Positions 48,641 to 62,550 of a DNA stretch of 64,000 nt are shown in pieces. The stretch spans positions 237,858 through 301,857 of the forward strand of contig JAHDHQ010000001.1 in assembly GCA_020631235.1 (NCBI GenBank). Reading direction: 5' to 3'. The stretch's first letter is position 1; every line of letters starts with the position of its first letter. The position numbers and the translations under genes are program-made. This stretch comes from Saprospiraceae bacterium. Its GTDB lineage: Bacteria > Bacteroidota > Bacteroidia > Chitinophagales > Saprospiraceae. The notes below the pieces were generated by a model, which was not told where the DNA came from, did no database searches, and saw nothing but the letters and a program-made list of their open reading frames with translations.

Positions 48641-51277
48641 ATGCAGGTTCCTCCTATCATTTCACTTATCTGCTTGCTATTTGTTTTGAATGTTTATTCA
48701 TCCACAGTAGTTGCCCAATCTGAAGCACCATATGAGGCTTACGAGGATTCCCTTGCTCATTATCAAGAAAAGCATGCTTGGGAACAGTATGAGGATTACC
48801 TTAAGAGACTACACAAACACTTTATCAAAGAAGATTCTATCGAAAAATTTAATCTTTTAGATAAGTACTATTTTATTCCAGTTGACACCTTATCGTCCGC
48901 TTTATTTCGAGAATTGTTTCTCATCAAAGGATATTATACTTGGCGTTATTTAGGCGACTATGAGAAATCACTCAACTTCTATTTAACAGCCCATGACCAA
49001 CTCGAGAATAAAAAAGAAGGCGATAAAAGAAGTTGGTTTGTAGAAAACACAATAGGCACTATTTATACACGGCTGGGCGATTATGAAAAAGCCCATTATT
49101 TTCTCAAGCTGACAGAGCAGCACTTTAAACACCAGAATTCCGAAAAAAACCTAGCAAGACTCTACACTAACATGGCCAGAAACCACAGGTGCCGAAAGGA
49201 TTATACTTCTGCCATAGAGATACTGAAAAAAGGCATCCAAATATCGGATAATGATCAACTGTCTATGATGGCTAACTGGATCAACTTAGCGGACATATAC
49301 ATTGAAGTTGGCAATATTGAGGATGGAAAAAAAAGCATAGCAGAAACTAAACAAATAGATCCCACGCTGTTAGATGACCGGTTGTATTATTTATATGAAC
49401 TTGAAGGCGATATCGCTACTCTAGAAAAAGATGGCTTGAAAGCCAAGGATTATTACTATGCTTCTTACCAAGAGTTAAAAAAAATTCATCCACATTTATA
49501 TCGGAGAGAAGTTTCCAAACTACTTAATAAAATGGCTAACAGCTACCGAGCTCATGATTCATTAAAACAAGCGGAGCAATTTGCCTTTTTAGGACTCCAC
49601 TATCTAAATAGAGACATTGATTCTACTGGCATAAACAACATTGAAAAACATCATCTATATCCTGAAAACACTTTCATAGAACTACTCACAACATTGAGTA
49701 AAATAGAATCGGACAAATACTCAATATCTGAAGATACTGTGTCACTAAACAGGGCTATAAAATATACTCATTTTGCACGGAATGTTAATCGAAGATTGCG
49801 CAACACCTACCTGCAAGAACCGTCAAAATTATTGAGTGTCGAATTAAATAAATCTCTTTTAAACCAAGCCATAGACCTTAACTTTTTGGCTTATCAAAAG
49901 CATGGTGATACATCATTCATTTTAGAAGCGCAACAATTGTTTTCTGACTCAAAAGCCATTCTTTACAATGAGAAAATACAATTAGCAGCTAAAGAAATAC
50001 CCAATAAACATTTAAAAGATACGGAAGAAGAACTCATCCAATTAATCGAGAAAAAACATGATATTAAAGATCAGGAAAAGATGGATAGTATTAACCAATT
50101 GATCTTTAAAGTAGAAACTAAACTACAACATGATTATACACAATTAAACAGTGTCAATGACAAAGAAAAAAAACGAATAAATCAAAACTATATTGAATAT
50201 GTAATTACAAATCAAGAAGTTTATTCTATTTGTCAAATTGACCAAACCATTCACTACACACATCATGGAAAATCTGATGCTTTAATTTCCCTAATTAACG
50301 AATATCGATCACTTGTTTCACAGCATTCAAATCTGACCAGCTTTATTAAGGTTTCTCATCAATTATACCTGTTTCTTTTTAAAGATTTACCTGAAATAAA
50401 AAACAAGATTACCATCATTCCAGACGAATCTTTGCAATTAGTAAGTTTTGATGGTCTGTGTAAGGATATTGCTGAAAAAACCTATTTAGGAAAAGAAATA
50501 ACTATTAGCTATTTGTTTTCGGCACTTTCTGTGGACTCCAATCCAAGAGAAGCACAAAAAGTAAGCGTATTTACACACATCCCGAGCTATCCCGATCATG
50601 GAACTTTAAATAATACTCCTTTTAAACCATTAAAACACTTAGCCAAAGAAGCAGATCTAGTCGCTAAATATTTTGATCACATTCCAGTAAGCAAGGTAAA
50701 CCTTACAAGTTCAGAGTACTTAGACAGCATAAGCAAAGCGAGTATTTTTCATTTCGCTGGGCATGCACAAGTCCAAGACCAGTTAGCTTACCTCGTACTT
50801 GCTATTAATGATACCCTTCGACCCATTTATGCGGATCAGATTCAATATTCCAATTGTCAGAATAAACTAGTTGCTTTGAGTGCTTGCGAAACTGCTTTGG
50901 GTGAAATAAAACTTGGAGAAGGAATACAAAGTCTTGGGCGAAGTTTTATGATTGCTGGTGCAGAATCTGTGCTACAAAGCTTATGGAAAGTAGATGATCA
51001 AAGTACAGCTATTATCATGGGTGATTTTTATAAATATTTGGCTCAAGGGAAGGAAAAGCATGTGGCACTCAGAGAAGCAAAAAAAGAGTTTATTTCTACT
51101 AGTCCTCCCGAAAATAGGCACCCATACTATTGGAGTGGATTTATTTTAACAGGAAATACGCAAGCAATGGTAAAAACCAAGCAATGGAAATTTGTGTACC
51201 CAATAGTAGTTCTTGGGGTCATTTTTTTATGCTTCAAGTTACTTATTAGTAACCGGCAAAAAAATCAAACAATATGA
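48641..51277 (+). CDS. Periplasmic, membrane-anchored TPR-CHAT protease
   Basis: The 878-residue protein starts with a signal peptide (about 1-26, ending VVAQ), then helical TPR-type repeats (about 75-340, for example YLGDYEKSLNFYLTAHDQL and GDYEKAHYFLKL). A helical spacer follows, then a C-terminal CHAT domain (about 560-840), a caspase-fold peptidase. The catalytic pair is intact: H708 in FHFAGHA and C749 in LSACETALG. A final hydrophobic helix (about 850-868, YPIVVLGVIFLCFKLL) with a basic end suggests anchoring in the inner membrane, CHAT domain outward. Cytoplasmic CHAT proteases act in defence systems; this topology is different. Its stop overlaps the next start by 4 bp (ATGA). Confidence 0.9.
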   Translation: MQVPPIISLICLLFVLNVYSSTVVAQSEAPYEAYEDSLAHYQEKHAWEQYEDYLKRLHKHFIKEDSIEKFNLLDKYYFIPVDTLSSALFRELFLIKGYYTWRYLGDYEKSLNFYLTAHDQLENKKEGDKRSWFVENTIGTIYTRLGDYEKAHYFLKLTEQHFKHQNSEKNLARLYTNMARNHRCRKDYTSAIEILKKGIQISDNDQLSMMANWINLADIYIEVGNIEDGKKSIAETKQIDPTLLDDRLYYLYELEGDIATLEKDGLKAKDYYYASYQELKKIHPHLYRREVSKLLNKMANSYRAHDSLKQAEQFAFLGLHYLNRDIDSTGINNIEKHHLYPENTFIELLTTLSKIESDKYSISEDTVSLNRAIKYTHFARNVNRRLRNTYLQEPSKLLSVELNKSLLNQAIDLNFLAYQKHGDTSFILEAQQLFSDSKAILYNEKIQLAAKEIPNKHLKDTEEELIQLIEKKHDIKDQEKMDSINQLIFKVETKLQHDYTQLNSVNDKEKKRINQNYIEYVITNQEVYSICQIDQTIHYTHHGKSDALISLINEYRSLVSQHSNLTSFIKVSHQLYLFLFKDLPEIKNKITIIPDESLQLVSFDGLCKDIAEKTYLGKEITISYLFSALSVDSNPREAQKVSVFTHIPSYPDHGTLNNTPFKPLKHLAKEADLVAKYFDHIPVSKVNLTSSEYLDSISKASIFHFAGHAQVQDQLAYLVLAINDTLRPIYADQIQYSNCQNKLVALSACETALGEIKLGEGIQSLGRSFMIAGAESVLQSLWKVDDQSTAIIMGDFYKYLAQGKEKHVALREAKKEFISTSPPENRHPYYWSGFILTGNTQAMVKTKQWKFVYPIVVLGVIFLCFKLLISNRQKNQTI

Positions 51278-52791
51278 AACATACATTTATTCTTTTATTC
51301 TTCAGTCTTCTTTTCCAATCAGCTAACTGCCAATTAGATATGCAATGGTACATTAAAAATGGTTATGGCTTAAATGGGACAACCAGCAATTACTCTAATC
51401 CCATCGACCCGACGCTGGATGTAGATATTAAGCAAGTGACCCACCCGTCTTCCAACATCCCAAATGCAGAAAATGCCCTCTTCATAATAAAAGAATCTGG
51501 CAATATGTTTAGCACAGATATAAATGGCTCTATTAATCATACAACATCAAATGGCTCCAATTACACCATAGATTTTACTGATCCGCCCTTGTACATGTAT
51601 TTTACCAATAAATACGAAAATGATGACCCTACTCAAGGTATACTCATCAACAATGGTTCAAACTACATGCAAGTAGCCATCACAAACTCAGTCTTTCCTG
51701 AAGTGTTATGGGCGCATCAAGATGTTATTCCTTCAACAGATATTGTGCTTGCCATCAACAAAAGAAATATCAAGGACGAGGCTTGTACAAATCTAACAAG
51801 TGTTGACGTTTGCTTTGACATTACTAGCCCAACAAGTACAATAAATAACTTTATTCAGCCTTGGCCTGTTTTTTTCAATGGTGGCACAGCAGAGTCCATC
51901 TTACCTGGAGATAACGCAAAAACACCTTTTTCGAAATCTATATTTACCAATGCAGCGTCAGAACGATGTATCAAATTACTCCTTTCGGATTTTGGGACAC
52001 ATCAAATGATGTATATAAATTTTAGATCAGCAGGTGATTTATCCAATTTGATCGCAGGGGATTACGACAACTTATTTAAAATCTATTGCGGAGGGACTAC
52101 TCAGCTCATTGATGACCTTGCAAAAGATGTTAGAGCAGCGCACGATCCTAACTATTGTGAAGTAACAAGTATTTGTGAAATTAACAATGAATTATACGTC
52201 AATTATCATATTGAGTTTTACAATGAAGATCCTACCCCACTAGACGCAAATTCTCTGGGCACAAGCATCCAATTACCAACTTGTCTAGACCCTAACTCTT
52301 TGTGCATTAAAGATTTTAGAGTAGGTGAAATGTCATACGCTGGTAATAACCCTCTCAATTGGACTACAAGCAGCATGGCTACTTCATTTAATGGTCAAGA
52401 GGTCAGTTTTGATTTCCCGCTGGCGCAATTAGCAGGTACACTAGATCCTGATAAAGTGCCTCCAGGCGCCATAGGTCGTGTAGACTTTTGTGTGAAATTT
52501 AATCCTACTTGTGATATTCATGAAGCAGATCTAAGTCCTGCCGCTACACCGACAACTAATTTTGGGGGTACTACATTTGAGATACACGATTTTATAGACA
52601 ACCTTGAATGTACATCGAGCGGAATTGACGGAACTCAATCATTTACTTGTGAAAGACCAATCACAACATCAGATTGTTCTTGTGCTTGTGATGGTGATAT
52701 TGATGATACAAATTGGTGGGTTTATGCTGGAATTGCAGTCATTGCCTTATTGCTCATGGGTATACTTTTAAGAATCAGAAGACGGCCTTAA
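51274..52791 (+). CDS. Secreted, C-terminally membrane-anchored protein coupled to CHAT gene
   Basis: I do not recognise this 505-residue protein. It has a signal peptide (about 1-20, ending NCQ), a beta-rich body with scattered cysteines, a cysteine cluster before the end (CSCACDGD), and a C-terminal hydrophobic helix (about 482-500, YAGIAVIALLLMGILLRI) closed by RRRP. This is a type I topology with the body in the periplasm. The ATGA overlap with the CHAT gene indicates translational coupling and near-equal expression, making it a likely partner or substrate. Its 3' end overlaps the convergent anti-sigma gene by 24 bp. Confidence 0.8.
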   Translation: MKHTFILLFFSLLFQSANCQLDMQWYIKNGYGLNGTTSNYSNPIDPTLDVDIKQVTHPSSNIPNAENALFIIKESGNMFSTDINGSINHTTSNGSNYTIDFTDPPLYMYFTNKYENDDPTQGILINNGSNYMQVAITNSVFPEVLWAHQDVIPSTDIVLAINKRNIKDEACTNLTSVDVCFDITSPTSTINNFIQPWPVFFNGGTAESILPGDNAKTPFSKSIFTNAASERCIKLLLSDFGTHQMMYINFRSAGDLSNLIAGDYDNLFKIYCGGTTQLIDDLAKDVRAAHDPNYCEVTSICEINNELYVNYHIEFYNEDPTPLDANSLGTSIQLPTCLDPNSLCIKDFRVGEMSYAGNNPLNWTTSSMATSFNGQEVSFDFPLAQLAGTLDPDKVPPGAIGRVDFCVKFNPTCDIHEADLSPAATPTTNFGGTTFEIHDFIDNLECTSSGIDGTQSFTCERPITTSDCSCACDGDIDDTNWWVYAGIAVIALLLMGILLRIRRRP

Positions 52792-53478
52792 CTCCTTGAT
52801 TTTTCCTAAATAATATGGATCAAGATCCTTAGGCAACGTTTCTTTTATTTTATTTAAAGAAACGTTGTCCCTTTTTAGCCAGTAGCATAAAGCTTCCATA
52901 TATAGTTTTCGATCACGAAGATTGTCTGGTACATTCACTTGCTTTAAATACAACAAACAGCTATCTGGTTTTTGCTCATGCAAATACATCTCAGCTAACC
53001 ATAAGTTTTTATCATATTGGCCAATGTTAGGATCCTTCCTTAGTTGATTGATTCCCAATTGTGCATGTTCATTAATAAAGCGATGTATAGCCAGCTCCAG
53101 GGGCTTAGCATCTGACCTTGTGCTCGGCCAGGTAGGTTCCTCATAGTAAGCAAAAAACTGTTCCTCCTGACTTTTGACATTTGGTTTAAACACCCAATAG
53201 AGAATGGTCAATCCTAGCAGAACAAGCAGTAAAACCCACCACAAATAGTGCGTGCTCTTTTTAGCTTTGGTTTCACTCAAATGAATGTTTTTGAGTGTGT
53301 GCAAAGCAGATTCATGTGTATTAGTATCATCTAAGTAGTCATTCATAGATTGATACAAATTAAAAGATTCCTTCAGCTGCTTATCTTCAGCGAGCCTTTT
53401 ATTAAAGCTTTCCATTGCTTGTGTATCCAGCTCGCCAGCCAAATATTGATCAAATAATATGATTATTTCTTCATTCAT
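52768..53478 (-). CDS. Anti-sigma-factor-like membrane protein
   Basis: The 236-residue protein has a cytosolic N-terminal helical region (about 5-65, FDQYLAGELDTQAMESFNKRL), similar to the small anti-sigma domain found in Bacteroidota. One membrane helix follows (about 78-97, LWWVLLLVLLGLTILYWVF), then a periplasmic helical part with two TPR-like helices. The gene starts 8 bp inside the end of the sigma-factor gene, the usual coupled arrangement. No zinc-binding HxxxCxxC is present. Its anti-sigma role is inferred from this pairing and topology. Confidence 0.72.
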   Translation of the reverse strand: MNEEIIILFDQYLAGELDTQAMESFNKRLAEDKQLKESFNLYQSMNDYLDDTNTHESALHTLKNIHLSETKAKKSTHYLWWVLLLVLLGLTILYWVFKPNVKSQEEQFFAYYEEPTWPSTRSDAKPLELAIHRFINEHAQLGINQLRKDPNIGQYDKNLWLAEMYLHEQKPDSCLLYLKQVNVPDNLRDRKLYMEALCYWLKRDNVSLNKIKETLPKDLDPYYLGKIKELRPSSDS

Positions 53479-54031
53479 CCCGCCATTGTTTATATGCTGG
53501 ATCTTCTTTTAATAATGTACTCCATCGCTTGATGCAAGCCGCTTTTCTTCGATAAAGGGTATTCTTTGTATTAAACGCTAAGGTTTCTTGAATCTCTTCC
53601 GCTTTTTTTCCCTTTCTTATTAATCCAAGTAGTTCTTGACATAAAGAGGATAATTGCAAAAAACTTTTTTCAAATAATTTATGCTTTTGATAAGCTACTT
53701 CTTTTTCTATGTATGATGCTTCAAAACCCTTTTCAATAATAAGTAATTCTTGATCATCGTTTCTTACCTCTCTTTTACTTTTTCTTTTATAATTATACCA
53801 TTTAAACTTGGCTATTTGCAGAACTAAACCATCAAAAGTACTATCCAGTTTATCGATTTTTAATAAGATGGTTTCAAGGACTTCTTGGAAAATATCTTCG
53901 GCTTGTTCTTTACGTCCACCATTTTTTACAATCCAGGCTATTACCCTTGGCAAGATTGTTTTATAAATCTCACGAATTTTTTCAGGTTGCCCCTGCTTTA
54001 ATCCATCAAAAAGTTGTTGACCTTGAACCAT
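53471..54031 (-). CDS. ECF-like sigma-70 family RNA polymerase sigma factor
   Basis: The 186-residue protein has sigma region 2 (about 20-85; NGGRKEQAEDIFQEVLETIL, and LVLQIAKFKWYNYKRKSKRE for the -10-binding helix) and region 4 (about 105-170; LSSLCQELLGLIRKGKKAEEIQETL, with an unusual NTKNTLYRRKAACIKRW recognition helix), with no region 1.1 or 3, as in extracytoplasmic-function sigma factors. The overlapping next gene is a membrane protein that fits an anti-sigma factor. The target promoter is unknown. Orientation places it convergent to the CHAT operon and divergent from the LytTR gene. Confidence 0.87.
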   Translation of the reverse strand: MVQGQQLFDGLKQGQPEKIREIYKTILPRVIAWIVKNGGRKEQAEDIFQEVLETILLKIDKLDSTFDGLVLQIAKFKWYNYKRKSKREVRNDDQELLIIEKGFEASYIEKEVAYQKHKLFEKSFLQLSSLCQELLGLIRKGKKAEEIQETLAFNTKNTLYRRKAACIKRWSTLLKEDPAYKQWRDE

Positions 54032-54116
54032 ACTTTAAAATCACTACTAAGATAATTTTTTATTTCAGAGGGTAAGATTTTCCAATATCAATTGACTTGT
54101 AATAAATGCTTGATAG

Positions 54117-54449
54117 ATGTTGGATAAAACCAAAATTATGATCCCTTGTACCGCGACCATTGAATTTGTCATGATCAGACAAATTGTTCGAGTGGAGGCC
54201 ATGCAAAACTATTCAAAGGTTTTCCTTAAGGATGGACAATGCCTCATCAGCAATTTGGGCATAACAAAGATTGGTGAAACACTTGTTAATCATTCTTTTT
54301 TTATGAGCCACAAGTCTCATTTAATTAACCAAACCGAAGTCTTAAGGTACTATAAAGAAGGTCAGCTCATGATGTCAGATGGGTCGAGAGTTCCGCTAGC
54401 ACGGCGAAGGAAAGAGTCCTTTTTTAACAGCTATAAACCGCTCGATTAG
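54117..54449 (+). CDS. Stand-alone LytTR DNA-binding protein
   Basis: The 110-residue protein consists of a LytTR domain only (about 12-105), with IRQIVRVEAMQNYSKVFLKDG and FFMSHKSHLINQTEV as the DNA-binding strands, and no receiver. It therefore probably lacks phosphorylation control, unless it dimerises with another LytTR protein. It lies between the sigma gene (divergent, 85 bp) and the giant T9SS protein (128 bp downstream, same strand), so it may regulate one or both. Confidence 0.88.
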   Translation: MLDKTKIMIPCTATIEFVMIRQIVRVEAMQNYSKVFLKDGQCLISNLGITKIGETLVNHSFFMSHKSHLINQTEVLRYYKEGQLMMSDGSRVPLARRRKESFFNSYKPLD

Positions 54450-54577
54450 CATTTAGCTCCGATGGTAAGAAATAATCGGTAGCGATCGAAGATTTTCTCA
54501 CCATTTATCAAACAATTATGGAACAGCATTTAATGACTAATATTTTTAAATCAAGTATAAAAACAAAAAGATCAATT

Positions 54578-57500
54578 ATGAAAACAAGACTTACCTTTTT
54601 TCTAGGGCTATTGCTATGCTCTACTCAATTACTAATTGCACAAGATTTAGCCAATTGCAATACTCAAGTAATCACTTTAGTCGAACAAAACGAATGGAGT
54701 GCTGGGGCTTTCTCTCAAAATATAGTTTTTGAGAACGATTGTGGTTGTAACACAGTCGGAGATTGCCAGATAGTAAGCATAGAATTTCCTTCCAATTATA
54801 CGTGCTTCGGCTTGGTAATAGCACTAGAAAATAGCCTTGAATGGTACGATGATCATTTTGATTTATATTATATCCCAGATTGTACTTATGACGGATTAGA
54901 CAACATTCAAGATTTTCAAAAGTCTAATTATATTGCCTCTGTAGATCCACCACAAATGGGAGGTTCTTTTGACTTTCTCATTTGTGCCGGTGAGGATTTA
55001 CCTGTTGGACAAAACGCTGTATCTCTTGATTTTAACACGAGTGATCTATGCGACATAGAAGACTGTAGCAATGACAACACACCTCCTACTTGCTCAGCTC
55101 CTGATGTTACTATTAATGGTTCCAATGGAAGCACAGAAGTCAGCATACAATTTACCGAGTGGGCAACAGATAATTGCGGACAAGTTTCTACTTCGCAAAT
55201 CATTGACCTATCCACTAATGATATCATAACGGATGGATCTGCTTTTCCTTGCGGATCGCAGCAGTCTTTCGAAGTAGGTTTTATAGATGAAAACAATAAT
55301 AGTATTTTTTGCGCCTTTAATGTAAGTATAGAATGTCCAACTATAAATGGTTCAGATGAGTTTTTAAAAGTATATGGAAATGCGGATAGCAATTTCCCCA
55401 TCAAGGTAAAGTATGCAAATGACCATGTTTTCTTAATCACAAGAGAACAGGTGGGAGACATCTTCCAAGGAGTACTATACAAAATAGATAATAATGGAGA
55501 TATCGTATGGTCTTTTGCCAGTGACCAAAACGCCTACTTTATCGATGTTATCATCGACGGATCGGATATTTTACTCACAGGTAGCACTCTGCCTTTTGAA
55601 AATCAAAATAACTCCTTAATCGTCAAATTAACAGATAGTGGTAGTACTTACACCATTAATAAAGCGGATAATATAGACAACTCCTTGCAAAGAGAAAGAA
55701 TGACTGGCATCGTGCAAATCAATGATGGATTAAATAAATACGCTGCATTATCTCACAATGGTTGGATCTCTATAGATGATGCGGGAATAACCCTATTAGA
55801 CGCTGAAGGCAACATAAACTTGCAATCAAATTATGATTTCAGTGATGATCAATTATGGTCTGGACCTAGTCTCGACATTGGACAAACCCTTAGTATTTAT
55901 GGTACAGAAGCGAATGATAGTGATGAAGGATTTATAGTCAATGCTAGCTATAATTTATCGGATTATTCAGGATATTCCTTCTTCGGACTAGCTTACATAC
56001 GAGATCTAATAATGACAACAGATGAGCAATTTAGAATCATCATGTCAAATGCAAGAATTTCAATAGCTGATGAAGATTTCTTTGTCACTAATAGCTATCT
56101 CTTAGAAGGCATATCATTAAATAGAGATATAGAAGGACCTATTAGTGATGGCTCAGGTAATGAATATTATTATTGCTTCTCAGACATGGAAATGGGCGAC
56201 CAAATAGTACCATTGATTAGTAAATTTTCTGTGAGCGGAAATGATTTGGTTTTTCATTGGTTTAAATATTTAAATACAGAACATCAAATCGATAATGGTG
56301 GAAGTTTTAAAGTTTTAGCACACGACCATTTTTTAATCACTACTCCAGTAGAAGACGCTGAAAGAGGATATGGACAAACGGATGTATGGCTGGGTATCAT
56401 CGATGCTTCTTCTTGTTTATTTAATGATGTTGATATAGCCTTAGTGCCATCTGAAGTCAACGTGGTAGAACAAGATGTTGCTTACAACAATAAAGTGGCT
56501 TCCTCGATTGTAGAAGCTAATCTGGCTGAAGCTCCGGCTTACACTTGTTATTCCCTTGAGCCTTGTGAACCGATTGATTCTACTTGTGTATTTGATTGTA
56601 GTGAAGAATGCAGTACCGAAACTGTTAGTTTGAGCACAGGCATAGATCCTATTTCGGGAGATGCTATTCCAGTATTAGGCAATGATCCAGGCTGGCTATT
56701 AATCGAGTCACCAGATCCTGGTATTCAGGTACCGAAGCCTGCCGTTTTAGTGGAACCCAATGACGTATGGGATCAACTTCCAGGATCAAGCTACATTTCG
56801 GCTTACCCAGACCCCAATAATAATGATAATAATATCAGCAATGGTACTGCTTATGTGTTTGAAAGATGTTTTTGTGTTTGTGATGAATCAAGTGACGTCC
56901 TATTCGAAATAGAGGCTTTAGTCGATAACAATTTAAAAATAGATTTATTGGATGAAAATGAAAATGTACTAAGCACCCTAGTCGATATAGTGGATCAAAC
57001 AACAGGTGCTTTTACTTTTCCTCCTGCTACACATAATGAAACATACACATTGAGTAATGGAGTGTATTGCTTACGTGCTTATTTAAAAAATGATGGTTCA
57101 GTTACCATGGGTATGTCTGCCGATATCTCGATTACTGGCGCTGGTCTGATCGAGCATCAATGTTGTAAAACATACAATGCGATAACGGGTCAGGTATTTA
57201 ATGATACTTCTTGTGATGGAGCTTATAATAATGGTCAAGATAGCGGACTTGCTGATTATGAGCTTAACTTGTGCAGTCCAGATGGAACAATCTTACATAC
57301 CTTATTTTCGGATAGTTTTGGGTATTTTACTTTTTCCAATGTCGTCCCAGGAGAATACATAATTAAAATAATAAATGCTGGATCTTTGAGCCTCACAACG
57401 CCCGAAGATTATCAAGCTATTGTCAGTGACAATCAAGTTATCGGAAGCATTGATTTTGGATTGTGTAATCCCGAATGTATATCGGATAATGTAGCTATCC

Positions 57501-60500
57501 ACCTTGATGGAGTCGATGATTTTATACAACTGGATGATATTGGAGCTTATAATGATTTAAGCATTGGTACTTGGTTTAAAGCTGATGTGGTCAACTATTC
57601 AGGTGCAGAAAACAGGATTATGAGTTTTGGTGGAATAAATAGGCTTGAGATTGGGCATTTAAATAATGGAACTTTATGGTTATTTGACCAATCACAAAAT
57701 CAAACCTTTACCATGAGTGAGAATGTTTTAGATGGAGAGTGGCATCATATCGCTTATGTGGCTAAATCTGAAAACAGATATGTATATTTTGATTTTGAAG
57801 AAGTATTAAACTATGTGTCTCCTACATCTGATATTAATTATGGTCCTCACCTTCAGATCGGGACGTGGATTAATGGAGGTGCGGATGGTTCGTTGTATCA
57901 AGGGTTGTTAGACGAATTTAAGGGCTTTGACTTAGCTATAGCGGAGAATCTTCTTTGTGAGGCCTTTAACAATACGCCACCTAACTTGATGGACAATTTA
58001 AGAATCTACTTTGATTTTGAAGATGGACAAGCAGATGAGAATAACAGTACACTTACACAAATCGCCAACCAAGGAGATTTGATTCGTGGAGATTTATACC
58101 ACTTTGGTTTAATAGAAACTGCTTATTCAAATTTTACCTGTGGCACTTTTAATCAAGATTGCAGTATGCCTTGCGATCCGGATATTACGCCACCTATTTG
58201 CTTAGCCAATGATATTCAATACGAAATGGATCAAAGTGGTTTTGTGGCCATAACTATTGATGCGATCAATGCGGGTTCTTTTGACGATTGTTCCGATGTA
58301 GAACTGAATATTGAGGCAAATGGTTTCTCTTGTTTTGATATCGATCAAGCAAACACAGTCACTTTAGTAGTCACTGACGCCGCAGGTAATGAAAGTACAT
58401 GTACTTCTACTGTAACTATTTTAGACCCGAATAACTATTGTAATGACATCATAGATCCTACTTGTGATTTTGAATGTAGTGATGAATGTAATACGGATAA
58501 CATTGCTTTAGGTACTGCTTTTGATCCTCTCACAAATATGGCTATCCCAATCGGGCAATTTGACCCTGCTTGGATTTTAATCGACAGCCCTGATCCGAAC
58601 ATACAAACACCAAGGCCAGCTTATGTTTTAAATCCTAATGATGTGTGGGATCAGCTACCAGGATCAAATTATATTTCAGCCTATCCTAATGCCAACAATA
58701 ATGACAATAACATTGCTAATGGAACAGAATATGTATTCCAACGGTGTTTTTGTGTTTGTGAGGACCAATCTAACGTAGAAATAAGTGTAGATGCATATGT
58801 AGATAACAACCTACAAATCGACTTGTACGATGAGAATAATCTCCTTGTAGAACCAATCATTAATATTACTGATCAAACTCAAAATGCGTTTGTCTTCCCT
58901 CCTGCTTCTTATCAAGAAACTTTAACCTTAGGGACTGGTATTTATTGTTTTAATGCAGCTCTAAAAAATGACGGAGCGGTCACTATGGGAATGAGCATAG
59001 ATATAATGATTAGTGGTGCAGGCTTGATCGAAAACCAATGCTGTAAATCCTTTAATTCTATAACTGGGCAAGTGTTTAATGACACCAATTGTGATGGTTT
59101 AAATGATTTTTCAACGGATCTTGGTATAGAGAATTTTCAAATTGATTTGTGCGAAAGCGATGGTTCGTTTATTACGAGTCTTGTAAGTGATGCCTTTGGT
59201 TACTTTAGTTTCAATAATATTCCTGGCGGAAACTATCAAGTAAAAGTGATTAACAACAGTACCTTAATAAATACCACAGCGGATATTTATGAAGTGAGTA
59301 TTAACAACAACCAAGTGGTCGGTGGAATAGAATTTGGTTTTTGTGAAGACCCGTGCGCAAATGATGACCAAGCACCAGAATGCATTGAACTTGAAGTTAC
59401 AATCGAAATCGAAGCTAACGGGCAGACGGGTATTCCACCAGATTTATTTGACGGAGGAGCCTTGGATGATTGTACTGAAGTGGAAGTGAATTTTGATCAA
59501 ATTATTTTTGATTGTAACGATCTTGGACCATATAATTATAGCTATACAGCCTCAGATCAAGCGGGAAATACAACTATTTGCGAAGTTGTTATGGAAATAA
59601 CAGACCCTAATAATTATTGTGATCCTTGCAACATGGACACCAGCCCTCCTACTTGTATCGCACTAAGTGCAATATTGCAGATGGGAGTTGACGGTTTTAT
59701 AAATATTTCAGTTGATGAGATAGACGGTGGTTCTTTTGATAATTGCACAGATGTAACTAGTAGCATCAGTCAAACAGTGCTCACTTGCGATAATCTTGGC
59801 AATAATACCATACTATTAACCGTGTCAGATCTGAATGGAAATAGCTCTACTTGTGAGTCATTTATTTCATTATCTGACCCTAATGATTATTGTAATCCGT
59901 GCAATATGGATACGACTCCTCCTACCTGTGTCCCTTTGAGTGCAGTCATTCAAATAAATCCAAACGGTAGTGCTTCTGTCGAACATTCTGCATTGGATGA
60001 TGGTTCGACAGATGATTGTTCCGATGTAAGTATAGTGGAAGGTACATACATCTTTAATTGTGATCAATTAGGTATTAATATAGTGGAATATGTGATCTAC
60101 GACCAGTCCAATAATGAAAGGGTTTGCGAGACACAAGTGCTTGTCGAAGACCCAAGTTTCTATTGCAATCCTTGCATACCAGACACTATACCTCCGATCT
60201 GTGTTAATCAATCCATCAGCCTAACTATGGATAATCCGGACCTCATTGAAATAGCATTGTCATCAATAGAAAATCAATCTTATGATGAATGTGGAAGCAT
60301 CGAATTCAGTGACGATATTTATTATTTTACTTGCGATGACTTAGGCTCTAGCACAGCTCTTTATACCATCTTCGACGAAGCTGGTAATACTGCTCAATGT
60401 GAAGTTTCATTCATTTTAGAAGATCCTGCAAACAATTGCGAATGTTTTGAAGATAATATACCACCAAATTGTATATCTCAAGATATAGTCATTCAACTTG

Positions 60501-61519
60501 ATGAAAGCGGCAATGTCACTGTAACTATGGAGATGCTCGATAATGGATCCTTTGATAATTGCACTGAAGTTGCTTTTAGTGGACTTACTTATGATTACAA
60601 TTGTGATCAATTGGGTATTTATGAAGTAGTATTAGTAGTTTGGGATGGTAACGGTAATTTTTCTGAGTGCCCTACCACCATCACTGTGGAAGATAAGCTA
60701 GAGGTATGCCCCTGTTTGATGGATACCATCCCACCTATTTGCTTAACGCAAAGTCTAAATATCAACGTAGGTGACGCTGGAACAGCGAGTGTTTCAACCG
60801 GAGAAATCAATAATGGATCATTTGATGATTGTACTGAGGTTTCTTATGATGACATTATCATCGAATATAATTGTGATCAGTTGGGCGAGCAGAGTGTCGA
60901 ATTAACAATCTATGATGAAGCTGGGAATAGCAGTGTTTGTTCATCTACCATTACCGTGACAGATAGCATGGATTACTGCTTGTGCATAAATGACATAGAA
61001 CCACCCATATGTATTCTTGGCAATGTGGTCGTTTTTATGGAACCGGACTCCACAGTTTCAATTGACTTTGAAGATCTGGATCTTGGTTCATACGATGAAT
61101 GTTCGGACTTTGATTATGCTATTAGCCAGAGCGTTTTTGGCTGTGACCAAGTGTGCACTAATTTTATCACGGTGGTTTTAACCGATACATTTGGCAATGT
61201 CGTGGAATGTGAAACTGCAGTTTCTGTTGTGGATACTTTAGGAATATGTACCATTTCCAACACAAGTAATCATGTACCCTCCGATAATGTACTTGTCAAA
61301 CCAAATCCTAGCAATGGGTTTTTCCACGTCGAACTTAGCCAGGCAAATATGCAGGTCATAGAAGTGTTTGATATTTCTGGTCACTTAATGCTTAAAAAGA
61401 GCGAATTAAATAGAAAATCAGCCAACCTAAACTTAGAGCATTTGGCGACTGGAACATATATTTTAAGAATCATGAGCACAGAAGGACATTTTGTAGTAAA
61501 AAGGATAGTGAAAATGTAA
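54578..61519 (+). CDS. Giant modular T9SS surface protein
   Basis: The 2313-residue protein is secreted. From the chosen start at 54578, a good signal peptide (1-22, ending LIAQ) is read; the frame extends to 54518, but that ATG adds a charged 20-residue lead that spoils the signal. Domains in order: an N-terminal beta domain (to about 165); a HYR-like repeat (PPTCSAPD); a long region like a delivery-stretch propeller; a 298-residue module; a LamG-like lectin fold (VAIHLDGVDDFIQL to about DEFKGF); one HYR-like repeat; a second copy of the 298-residue module; seven tandem HYR-like repeats; and a T9SS type A sorting domain (VLVKPNPSNGFFHVEL to HFVVKRIVKM). It is probably displayed on the cell surface for adhesion or sugar binding, by inference from domains. 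Confidence 0.9.
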   Translation: MKTRLTFFLGLLLCSTQLLIAQDLANCNTQVITLVEQNEWSAGAFSQNIVFENDCGCNTVGDCQIVSIEFPSNYTCFGLVIALENSLEWYDDHFDLYYIPDCTYDGLDNIQDFQKSNYIASVDPPQMGGSFDFLICAGEDLPVGQNAVSLDFNTSDLCDIEDCSNDNTPPTCSAPDVTINGSNGSTEVSIQFTEWATDNCGQVSTSQIIDLSTNDIITDGSAFPCGSQQSFEVGFIDENNNSIFCAFNVSIECPTINGSDEFLKVYGNADSNFPIKVKYANDHVFLITREQVGDIFQGVLYKIDNNGDIVWSFASDQNAYFIDVIIDGSDILLTGSTLPFENQNNSLIVKLTDSGSTYTINKADNIDNSLQRERMTGIVQINDGLNKYAALSHNGWISIDDAGITLLDAEGNINLQSNYDFSDDQLWSGPSLDIGQTLSIYGTEANDSDEGFIVNASYNLSDYSGYSFFGLAYIRDLIMTTDEQFRIIMSNARISIADEDFFVTNSYLLEGISLNRDIEGPISDGSGNEYYYCFSDMEMGDQIVPLISKFSVSGNDLVFHWFKYLNTEHQIDNGGSFKVLAHDHFLITTPVEDAERGYGQTDVWLGIIDASSCLFNDVDIALVPSEVNVVEQDVAYNNKVASSIVEANLAEAPAYTCYSLEPCEPIDSTCVFDCSEECSTETVSLSTGIDPISGDAIPVLGNDPGWLLIESPDPGIQVPKPAVLVEPNDVWDQLPGSSYISAYPDPNNNDNNISNGTAYVFERCFCVCDESSDVLFEIEALVDNNLKIDLLDENENVLSTLVDIVDQTTGAFTFPPATHNETYTLSNGVYCLRAYLKNDGSVTMGMSADISITGAGLIEHQCCKTYNAITGQVFNDTSCDGAYNNGQDSGLADYELNLCSPDGTILHTLFSDSFGYFTFSNVVPGEYIIKIINAGSLSLTTPEDYQAIVSDNQVIGSIDFGLCNPECISDNVAIHLDGVDDFIQLDDIGAYNDLSIGTWFKADVVNYSGAENRIMSFGGINRLEIGHLNNGTLWLFDQSQNQTFTMSENVLDGEWHHIAYVAKSENRYVYFDFEEVLNYVSPTSDINYGPHLQIGTWINGGADGSLYQGLLDEFKGFDLAIAENLLCEAFNNTPPNLMDNLRIYFDFEDGQADENNSTLTQIANQGDLIRGDLYHFGLIETAYSNFTCGTFNQDCSMPCDPDITPPICLANDIQYEMDQSGFVAITIDAINAGSFDDCSDVELNIEANGFSCFDIDQANTVTLVVTDAAGNESTCTSTVTILDPNNYCNDIIDPTCDFECSDECNTDNIALGTAFDPLTNMAIPIGQFDPAWILIDSPDPNIQTPRPAYVLNPNDVWDQLPGSNYISAYPNANNNDNNIANGTEYVFQRCFCVCEDQSNVEISVDAYVDNNLQIDLYDENNLLVEPIINITDQTQNAFVFPPASYQETLTLGTGIYCFNAALKNDGAVTMGMSIDIMISGAGLIENQCCKSFNSITGQVFNDTNCDGLNDFSTDLGIENFQIDLCESDGSFITSLVSDAFGYFSFNNIPGGNYQVKVINNSTLINTTADIYEVSINNNQVVGGIEFGFCEDPCANDDQAPECIELEVTIEIEANGQTGIPPDLFDGGALDDCTEVEVNFDQIIFDCNDLGPYNYSYTASDQAGNTTICEVVMEITDPNNYCDPCNMDTSPPTCIALSAILQMGVDGFINISVDEIDGGSFDNCTDVTSSISQTVLTCDNLGNNTILLTVSDLNGNSSTCESFISLSDPNDYCNPCNMDTTPPTCVPLSAVIQINPNGSASVEHSALDDGSTDDCSDVSIVEGTYIFNCDQLGINIVEYVIYDQSNNERVCETQVLVEDPSFYCNPCIPDTIPPICVNQSISLTMDNPDLIEIALSSIENQSYDECGSIEFSDDIYYFTCDDLGSSTALYTIFDEAGNTAQCEVSFILEDPANNCECFEDNIPPNCISQDIVIQLDESGNVTVTMEMLDNGSFDNCTEVAFSGLTYDYNCDQLGIYEVVLVVWDGNGNFSECPTTITVEDKLEVCPCLMDTIPPICLTQSLNINVGDAGTASVSTGEINNGSFDDCTEVSYDDIIIEYNCDQLGEQSVELTIYDEAGNSSVCSSTITVTDSMDYCLCINDIEPPICILGNVVVFMEPDSTVSIDFEDLDLGSYDECSDFDYAISQSVFGCDQVCTNFITVVLTDTFGNVVECETAVSVVDTLGICTISNTSNHVPSDNVLVKPNPSNGFFHVELSQANMQVIEVFDISGHLMLKKSELNRKSANLNLEHLATGTYILRIMSTEGHFVVKRIVKM
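56585..57478 (+). repeat. First copy of a duplicated 298-residue module
   Basis: 894 bp encoding residues from CVFDCSEEC to GLCNPEC. It contains a jelly-roll-like domain (DPGWLLIESPDP, NDVWDQLPGSSYISAYP, CFCVC) followed by an SdrD-B-like domain (ITGQVFNDTSCDG to VPGEYIIKI). It aligns in frame without net length change to the copy at 58463-59356. Confidence 0.9.
58463..59356 (+). repeat. Second copy of the duplicated 298-residue module
   Basis: Exactly 894 bp, from CDFECSDEC to GFCEDPC. Shared landmarks with the first copy are NDVWDQLPGS, YISAYP, NNNDNNI, RCFCVC, VDNNL, LKNDG, VTMGMS, ITGQVFNDT and DAFGYFSF/DSFGYFTF. Enough residues differ that the duplication is old. Confidence 0.9.
59357..61249 (+). 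repeat. Seven tandem HYR-like cysteine repeats
   Basis: About 84-90 residues each. Units begin APEC, PPTC, PPTC, PPIC, PPNC, PPIC and PPIC, then carry a DDCTEV/DNCTDV or similar DxC site, a NCDQLG or TCDDLG site, a DxxGN turn and a closing ExP/DPNNYC. An eighth related copy lies apart at about 58190. The unit resembles the hyalin repeat (HYR), a beta-sandwich module of adhesive proteins. Confidence 0.88.
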
Positions 61520-61637: not shown

Positions 61638-62012
61638 ATGAATGCAAAAGTATCAATGGGCATCCGAATCTTACTCGGAGTCTTCCTATTCGTTTTTGGA
61701 CTTAACAAATTTATGGGGTTTATGGAATTTCCTGCCATTCCTGGTGACGGCGGAACGCTTATGGGAATATATATAAGTTCCGGATTTATGAAGATTATTG
61801 GTGTTTTAGAAATAATCGTAGGGCTTTTATTGCTTGTAGGAAAACTGGTGCCCTTAGCAACCACCATCGCAGCAGCTATCATGTTTAACGCCTTGGTTTT
61901 CCATCTACTGCATGATCCAGCTAATTCTGCTGGAGCTGCTTTGGGCGTAATATTATGTTTATTGACAGTTTGGGGACATAAACATCAATTTAAAGGATTA
62001 TTCACTGTATAA
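61638..62012 (+). CDS. DoxX family membrane protein
   Basis: The 124-residue protein has four hydrophobic segments. It starts KVSMGIRILLGVFLFVFGLNKFMGF, continues with GGTLMGIYISSGFMKIIGVLEIIVGLLLLVG, and ends KLVPLATTIAAAIMFNALVFHLLHDP and a further segment. These are DoxX/SURF4-like features; related proteins act in thiol or quinone redox or oxidative stress, but the role here is unknown. It has its own terminator and lies alone. Confidence 0.88.
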   Translation: MNAKVSMGIRILLGVFLFVFGLNKFMGFMEFPAIPGDGGTLMGIYISSGFMKIIGVLEIIVGLLLLVGKLVPLATTIAAAIMFNALVFHLLHDPANSAGAALGVILCLLTVWGHKHQFKGLFTV

Positions 62013-62065: not shown

Positions 62066-62172
62066 TGTTTATAATTTGCATATTTGCACCAGAAAACCAA
62101 ATTATATTTTTAACACTATGATAAGTGACATTGTATATAATGGGTAGTCTAAATAATATATCCGAAACACAC

Positions 62173-62550
62173 ATGAAATTATTAACAACCATTCTTTTAG
62201 GCGCTTTTGCTTATTTTCCAGTATCGAGTCAGATGGCTAGCCTTGTTGATGAATCTTTTGACTACATAGTAAGTCACGACACACATGACCCTGTGAGAGA
62301 ACAAGTACTCAATCCCTATTCATTCGAAATTTTCCAAAACACTGCGCATACAAAAATCACGTTAGTGCTAAATGAAAGTCAGTCGCAAGGATTTACTAAA
62401 GCAACTGTACGTAATACCAATGGTTTCCCTTTAATTGTTACGCATAAAGCGGGTGCCATAGATGTGAGTGAGTTAGAAAAAGGATTTTATTATGTATTCG
62501 TTGAATACGGTGATAATCAAGTGTCCGTACAAAAACTCATCAAAGAATAA
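62173..62550 (+). CDS. Small secreted protein resembling a lone T9SS-type sorting domain
   Basis: The 125-residue protein starts at the ATG at 62173, where MKLLTTILLGAFAYFPVSSQ forms a signal peptide; the frame could open at 62125, but the lead is polar. The remaining 105 residues are beta-rich. The end (GFYYVFVEYG, then QVSVQKLIKE) has the G-x-Y-x-V pattern and closing KLIK of T9SS sorting domains. No catalytic domain precedes it. It may be a short T9SS substrate or a secreted beta-sandwich protein. It ends 10 bp from the convergent DUF547 gene. Confidence 0.72.
   Translation: MKLLTTILLGAFAYFPVSSQMASLVDESFDYIVSHDTHDPVREQVLNPYSFEIFQNTAHTKITLVLNESQSQGFTKATVRNTNGFPLIVTHKAGAIDVSELEKGFYYVFVEYGDNQVSVQKLIKE

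Follow-up and report, generated by a model that had tools for sequence, protein, structure and literature searches.

A TPR-CHAT protease as the putative site-1 protease of a membrane anti-sigma factor in a recurrent Bacteroidota module

What would be the substrate of an exported caspase-like protease whose gene lies beside those of a sigma factor and a membrane-bound anti-sigma-like protein? The question is raised by a six-gene block in the window analyzed here (a 64-kb stretch of DNA from a 4.19-Mb genome), whose protease-sigma module has its closest named relatives in Saprospiraceae MAGs. All six genes described in a first-pass annotation were confirmed at their positions (Table 1), together with the coupling of the protease (CHAT) and partner genes, the overlap between the sigma factor gene (SIG) and the anti-sigma gene (ASIG), the lone LytTR regulator, and the giant protein, which is 2333 aa long from the first ATG and 2313 aa from a better start. 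The CHAT and partner genes overlap at ATGA, the partner start lying inside the CHAT stop. SIG and ASIG are on the minus strand, convergent with the partner gene, and ASIG shares 8 bases with SIG and 24 with the 3′ end of the partner gene; beyond SIG, the LytTR gene and then the giant gene are transcribed divergently. A horizontal origin was rejected, as GC content gave no signal (36.5% for the block versus 35.6% for the window), and a defence role was dropped when PADLOC returned no match for the block worth following. At 62158-62547, after a DoxX-like gene (61638-62012), lies a gene for a 130-aa protein whose T9SS-type tail is weak (22.9 bits, under the cutoff).

Table 1. Features of the six-gene block, with positions numbered along the window
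Feature	Position	Strand	Basis or remarks
TPR-CHAT caspase-like protease (CHAT)	48641..51277	+	878 aa; Pfam CHAT and TPR, signal-like segment, C-terminal TM, His-Cys dyad
CHAT domain, residues 574-839	50360..51157	+	Pfam match
Catalytic-type dyad residues of CHAT	H708 codon 50762-50764; C749 codon 50885-50887	+	
E670 of CHAT, putative S1-pocket acid, helix alpha-1	50648..50650	+	Covaries with the ASIG site; clan CD precedent (PMC4357240)
Coupled partner	51274..52791	+	ATGA overlap, signal peptide, C-terminal TM, probably beta-rich
Predicted membrane anti-sigma factor ASIG	52768..53478	-	236 aa; helical part inside, then a TM segment, a linker, and a TPR part in the periplasm
ASIG transmembrane helix, residues 77-96	53191..53250	-	AlphaFold2 model
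Predicted ASIG cleavage site R121-S122	53113..53118	-	Lowest-entropy juxtamembrane column (124 sequences); coil 112-125 of the model
ECF-type sigma factor SIG	53471..54031	-	186 aa; Sigma70 region 2; profile matches SigH, SigW, and RpoE structures
Stand-alone LytTR regulator, looser associate	54117..54449	+	LytTR 37.2 bits; divergent from SIG
Giant T9SS-sorted surface protein, likely output gene	54518..61519	+	T9SS type A tail 39.2 bits; T9SS cargo enriched beside CHAT

The CHAT domain was recognized by Pfam with 166.8 bits (E 9e-49; cutoff 24), and an N-terminal TPR region lies at residues 136-202 (TPR_12, 47.3 bits). H708 is kept in 138 of 139 CHAT relatives and C749 in 137 of 139, the dyad being absent from two paralogues (L128_7 and L108_5). 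The protein has an N-terminal signal-like segment and a C-terminal hydrophobic segment that starts at residue 849. Among the CHAT proteins of paired modules, 61/76 have a C-terminal TM segment, and several of those without one start like lipoproteins. Since it carries both a signal peptide and a TM segment, CHAT is expected to reside outside the cytoplasm; by its domains and dyad it fits the TPR-CHAT caspase-like proteases, and we regard it as a putative protease that is predicted to be exported, membrane anchored, and periplasmic. The caspase-like CHAT protein with a signal peptide and a C-terminal anchor had been called from the sequence before, and the domain, the dyad, and the hydropathy segments were all found. 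Such proteins can be numerous, with up to 18 TPR-CHAT matches in one genome.

SIG matched Sigma70 region 2 with 29.3 bits (cutoff 24). Region 4 gave no Pfam match, and nearly the entire SIG profile could be aligned to SigH (E 9e-12). Across the family, ASIG is the gene immediately after SIG in 92 of 104 cases, and a TM segment is present in 71 of the 76 ASIG proteins of paired modules. The AlphaFold2 model of the window ASIG (pLDDT 89.5) has three helices (H3-13, H19-31, and H33-69) ahead of the TM helix and, past it, a short helix (104-111), a coil, and TPR-like helices; a fold search against the PDB returned TPR folds only, as weak matches (E 0.14 or worse). These features fit a single-pass membrane anti-sigma factor, predicted to have its helical part inside and its TPR part in the periplasm. 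From this predicted topology, the CHAT protease domain and the ASIG TPR domain are expected on the same periplasmic side, a placement based on hydropathy and the cytoplasmic location of the sigma factor. A homologue of the site-2 protease RseP (M50) is encoded in the same genome (E 5e-55).

Relatives of CHAT were sought in 60 genomes, and the gene neighbourhoods of 140 loci were inspected. Counts were made with a domain-only model; the full-length model also caught TPR proteins. SIG was found within 5 kb of 86/141 CHAT ORFs, in 26 genomes, against a chance expectation from sigma density of about 0.05 SIG per CHAT (about 5%). The two genes are in opposite orientation in 70 of these 86 pairs, and the divergent <SIG CHAT> layout occurs in 37/86. 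When named genomes were scanned with SIG only, CHAT lay within 5 kb at 26/80 loci, including those of Aquimarina, Dokdonia, Algoriphagus, Pleomorphovibrio, Hyunsoonleella, Xanthomarina, Flavihumibacter, and Mucilaginibacter. An ASIG-only search took in 395 genomes of the phylum; at the 60 strong matches that were inspected, CHAT lay within 4.5 kb of 45/61 ASIG. These data indicated that TPR-CHAT, SIG, and ASIG form a recurrent module across Bacteroidota.

The association has its limits, as 55/141 CHAT genes have no SIG-family sigma nearby, including all sampled loci of one genome (G023, L178-L184). That genome holds 16 TPR-CHAT matches, none of the sampled ones near a SIG-family sigma, and its CHAT proteins may serve another system. 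Conserved co-occurrence and gene order had been proposed as a check on the block. The CHAT-SIG-ASIG association held widely, and one Saprospiraceae MAG (L040/L200) repeats the full order CHAT-partner-<ASIG-<SIG-LytTR, while the window's own module is missing from the two other sampled genomes of the genus (best sigma E about 1e-11) and the partner occurs in few relatives. Because it is absent from these two congeners, the window's copy is accessory, though its kind is common. In L040/L200, two different SIG-ASIG pairs flank one CHAT gene, one upstream on the same strand and one convergent. In four genomes (L205, L210, L213, and L214), the gene after a SIG-ASIG pair encodes about 730 aa and was considered as a CHAT gene and rejected since inspection of its sequence points to a C39-peptidase ABC transporter; the CHAT matches in L210 and L213 were dropped as TPR proteins without a dyad.

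If CHAT acts on ASIG, which part of ASIG does it follow in evolution? Trees of CHAT, TPR, SIG, and the two ASIG halves were compared by the mirror-tree approach for 70 modules, with modules permuted inside each genome. CHAT tracked the periplasmic half of ASIG with a rho of 0.52 within genomes (0/1000 permutations) and the cytoplasmic half with a rho of 0.26, and SIG tracked the cytoplasmic half with a rho of 0.46; the two ASIG halves showed a rho of 0.14 with each other, which is not significant. In a bootstrap over genomes, the periplasmic-minus-cytoplasmic contrast of CHAT had P values of 0.001 for all pairs and 0.027 within genomes, and the cytoplasmic-versus-periplasmic contrast of SIG was weaker (P 0.027 and 0.30, respectively). 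Hence, the evolution of CHAT is tied to the periplasmic half of ASIG and that of SIG to the cytoplasmic half, the SIG contrast being weak within genomes.

The periplasmic side of ASIG also carries a conserved site close to the membrane. Its dominant form is [R/K/M]-[G/S], at a median of 26 residues past the TM segment. In the lowest-entropy juxtamembrane column of 124 ASIG sequences, R was counted 78 times, K 19, M 16, and Q 5 among 121 residues, and the following residue is G or S in 94/120. An alignment-free count found [RKM][GS] in 94/124 linkers, compared with 50.6 ± 5.3 after shuffling of the linkers and with 42 in a control segment taken farther along the protein. The window's R121-S122 falls in the predicted coil, and the remaining two CHAT-linked ASIG in its genome have R-G and K-S. 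A few ASIG have atypical linkers. Three ASIG of one family (L296, L314, and L335) lack both the site and a neighbouring CHAT gene; CHAT is absent from the genomes of L314 and L335, and the L296 genome has one partial match. An ASIG with R-G is kept in G341 (L290), a genome without CHAT, at a locus without SIG but with an otherwise similar gene order, which looks like recent loss or decay of the module. The ASIG proteins of L205 and L214 carry R-G with no CHAT nearby and, like that of G341, count against the reading that CHAT cleaves at this site.

Does CHAT change when the site changes? In paired modules, using CHAT proteins with an intact dyad only and a written site rule, the CHAT column that best separates Met from basic ASIG sites is the one occupied by E670 in the window. 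A basic site goes with E in 73/75 modules and a Met site with E in 0/15 (Fisher 3e-15), position 670 being L, V, M, F, or S in 15/15 of the latter. This column shares 0.652 bits of mutual information with the site, of a maximum of 0.668, and the next-best column of the domain 0.447. On a tree made without column 670, the Met site arose about four times and E was lost each time; the independent Met switches thus number only about four, and 15 of 22 Met cases belong to one clade. A separate set of 60 phylum-wide loci, drawn after the idea had been formed and placed on fixed alignments, gave E in 28/29 basic cases and 0/7 Met cases (P 1e-6). The site rule, written after a first look, permits a shift of one residue if a Met adjoins the aligned column; with strict first-pass calls made without this shift, the separate loci gave 34/36 and 0/4 (P 1.6e-4). 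The exceptions to the rule are L098 (R with N), L315 (R with R), and L124. Two Aquimarina modules (L207 and L218) combine a Q-G site with Lys at position 670, possibly a third specificity.

The position of E670, 38 residues ahead of the catalytic His, invites comparison with clan CD peptidases, in which alpha-1, L4, and L5 set S1 specificity (PMC4357240). An acid on alpha-1 binds the P1 Arg in gingipain R (RgpB D163) and MALT1 (D365), and D95 has been proposed for this role in TbMCA2 (PMC4357240). Judging by its place in the sequence, E670 would be the equivalent alpha-1 residue. In a profile alignment, Csx29 chains have Tyr or a gap in this column. Csx29 is reported to cut Csx30 after Leu407 in one system and to require Met427 in another (PMC9729208, PMC10028731); the lack of E at the column in Csx29 fits these reports.

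Because the site covaries with E670 and alpha-1 acids of clan CD read a P1 Arg, we consider it likely, judging from these comparisons, that CHAT is the site-1 protease that cuts ASIG after R121 to free SIG; the cleavage, the site-2 step, the signal, and the regulon are parts that we infer. The cytoplasmic part of ASIG would keep SIG inactive, and TPR-CHAT would be held in the periplasm by its C-terminal membrane anchor. An envelope signal would activate CHAT, which would then cut ASIG after R121, in the linker between the membrane and the TPR domain. The stump would be taken by general proteases, presumably the site-2 protease RseP, and the freed SIG would transcribe its targets, probably including neighbouring T9SS surface proteins. 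The proposal of the first-pass annotation that CHAT may act on the anti-sigma protein is thereby strongly supported at the level of sequence, through the two-way association, the co-evolution with the periplasmic half, the conserved site, and the covariation in two data sets.

Three other explanations have to be weighed. SIG and ASIG might merely regulate the CHAT gene, CHAT being the output (e.g., an envelope or cell-death effector), with ASIG cut by another site-1 protease or SIG released by ligand binding. Genes next to a sigma factor are often its targets, and the divergent <SIG CHAT> layout is common; however, such an arrangement predicts neither the covariation between the ASIG site and CHAT position 670 nor the tracking of the periplasmic ASIG half by CHAT, and the site-less ASIG come from genomes with no CHAT or, for L296, a single partial match. 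We therefore hold this explanation to be unlikely. Still less probable, in our judgment, is a docking element, by which the R/M site would be recognized by CHAT without being cut, CHAT acting as a pseudo-protease or scaffold. Covariation is evidence of recognition rather than of catalysis, and two CHAT paralogues lack the dyad, but the dyad is retained in 137/139, the covarying residue seems to be situated on the helix that shapes the S1 pocket of clan CD peptidases, and the site is in a predicted coil.

The remaining explanation concerns the coupled partner, which the earlier reading had offered as a CHAT substrate and which CHAT might process while the sigma pair is a separate affair. The ATGA coupling favours it, as do partner-like genes adjoining CHAT in about ten loci and the Csx29-Csx30 precedent that neighbours can be substrates. 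Yet relatives of the partner were found in only 3 of the sampled relatives beyond its own genome, so it is apparently lineage specific, whereas SIG/ASIG accompany most CHAT genes, and an alignment of the partner showed no conserved site resembling a cleavage site. The protein matched no Pfam or NCBIfam family, has a C-terminal TM segment from residue 479, and gave a poor AlphaFold2 model (pLDDT 35, from four sequences). With so narrow a distribution, the partner fared badly as a candidate substrate, and we consider its processing as the role of CHAT highly improbable.

What would the freed SIG transcribe? The giant combines SdrD_B, HYR, and laminin-G-like domains with its T9SS tail. T9SS-sorted proteins are enriched directly beside CHAT (36/197 versus 43/609, P 1.4e-5), and close relatives of the window SIG (L201-L204) have T9SS cargo as their divergent neighbour; for these two reasons, the giant is a reasonable candidate target of SIG. 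The earlier suggestion that the sigma factor controls surface proteins is partly supported by these neighbourhoods, and the giant as its target is what we infer from them. Upstream regions of SIG, CHAT, and the giant, compared by eye, gave no convincing shared promoter motif. LytTR genes also occur beside SIG at L040/L200 and L176, in only some modules, and the LytTR regulator and the T9SS giant are looser associates of the module. In many modules (L130, L131, L136, L140, L141, L143, L153, and others), CHAT is directly preceded, in the same orientation, by the gene for a T9SS-tailed protein of 250 to 350 aa, which might serve the switch as sensor or ligand.

The preferred reading, cleavage of ASIG by CHAT, would give the exported TPR-CHAT proteins of Bacteroidota a testable job as site-1 proteases of ECF anti-sigma factors, and it names the scissile bond, its pocket residue, and a swap that should change specificity. 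It also points to caspase-like proteolysis as a means of transcriptional control in free-living bacteria outside CRISPR, possibly with a link to type IX surface proteins. In the literature searched, which did not extend to subscription papers or the main ECF classification paper, only the Craspase work brought a CHAT domain and an ECF sigma together, and a caspase-like protease cutting a membrane anti-sigma factor appears, provisionally, to be a bacterial signalling route not described before. More tentatively, and with less than even confidence, we suggest that parallel caspase-anti-sigma circuits make up a large family in Bacteroidota, with several in one genome, and that they would be kept apart by matched pocket, site, and periplasmic TPR, many of them wired to T9SS cargo, with the Craspase set as a cytoplasmic relative.

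Among known systems, Craspase is similar in its parts: the TPR-CHAT protease Csx29 cleaves the anti-sigma-like Csx30 and thereby regulates an ECF-type sigma (PMC10028731, PMC9729208). The Csx29-Csx30-CASP-sigma set of type III-E CRISPR shares with the window a TPR-CHAT protease, an anti-sigma-like protein, and an ECF-type sigma, and the CHAT domains align. Csx29, however, works in an RNA-guided complex, and a cytoplasmic RNA-guided placement of this kind was not found for the window CHAT, which has a signal peptide and a TM segment and is predicted to be exported and membrane anchored, with no PADLOC match. Csx30 has been described as having two domains and being purified together with its sigma, whereas ASIG is predicted to span the membrane; the ASIG site is basic in most modules, and the window-type module is widespread and multicopy. 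CHAT proteases that activate bacterial gasdermins (mentioned in PMC9729208) likewise have their substrate genes as neighbours, but the block has no gasdermin match, and the likely substrate here is an anti-sigma factor. With the Arg-specific peptidases of clan CD (gingipain R, MALT1, metacaspase, and separase), the window enzyme shares the His-Cys dyad and, on alpha-1, an acid predicted to recognize a P1 Arg (PMC4357240); it differs in belonging to the CHAT family and in a specificity that appears to shift to Met once the acid is lost. The RseA-DegS-RseP pathway of sigma-E resembles the predicted circuit in its single-pass anti-sigma factor, an expected first cut in the periplasm near the membrane, the release of an ECF sigma, and the presence of a site-2 protease homologue. 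Here, the first protease would be a caspase-like enzyme bearing TPR, where the sigma-E pathway uses a PDZ serine protease, and the periplasmic part of ASIG is predicted to be a TPR domain. On our best reading, the module would operate in the manner of RseA/DegS and also, as an envelope counterpart, in that of the protease-sigma arm of Craspase, fully matching the definition of neither.
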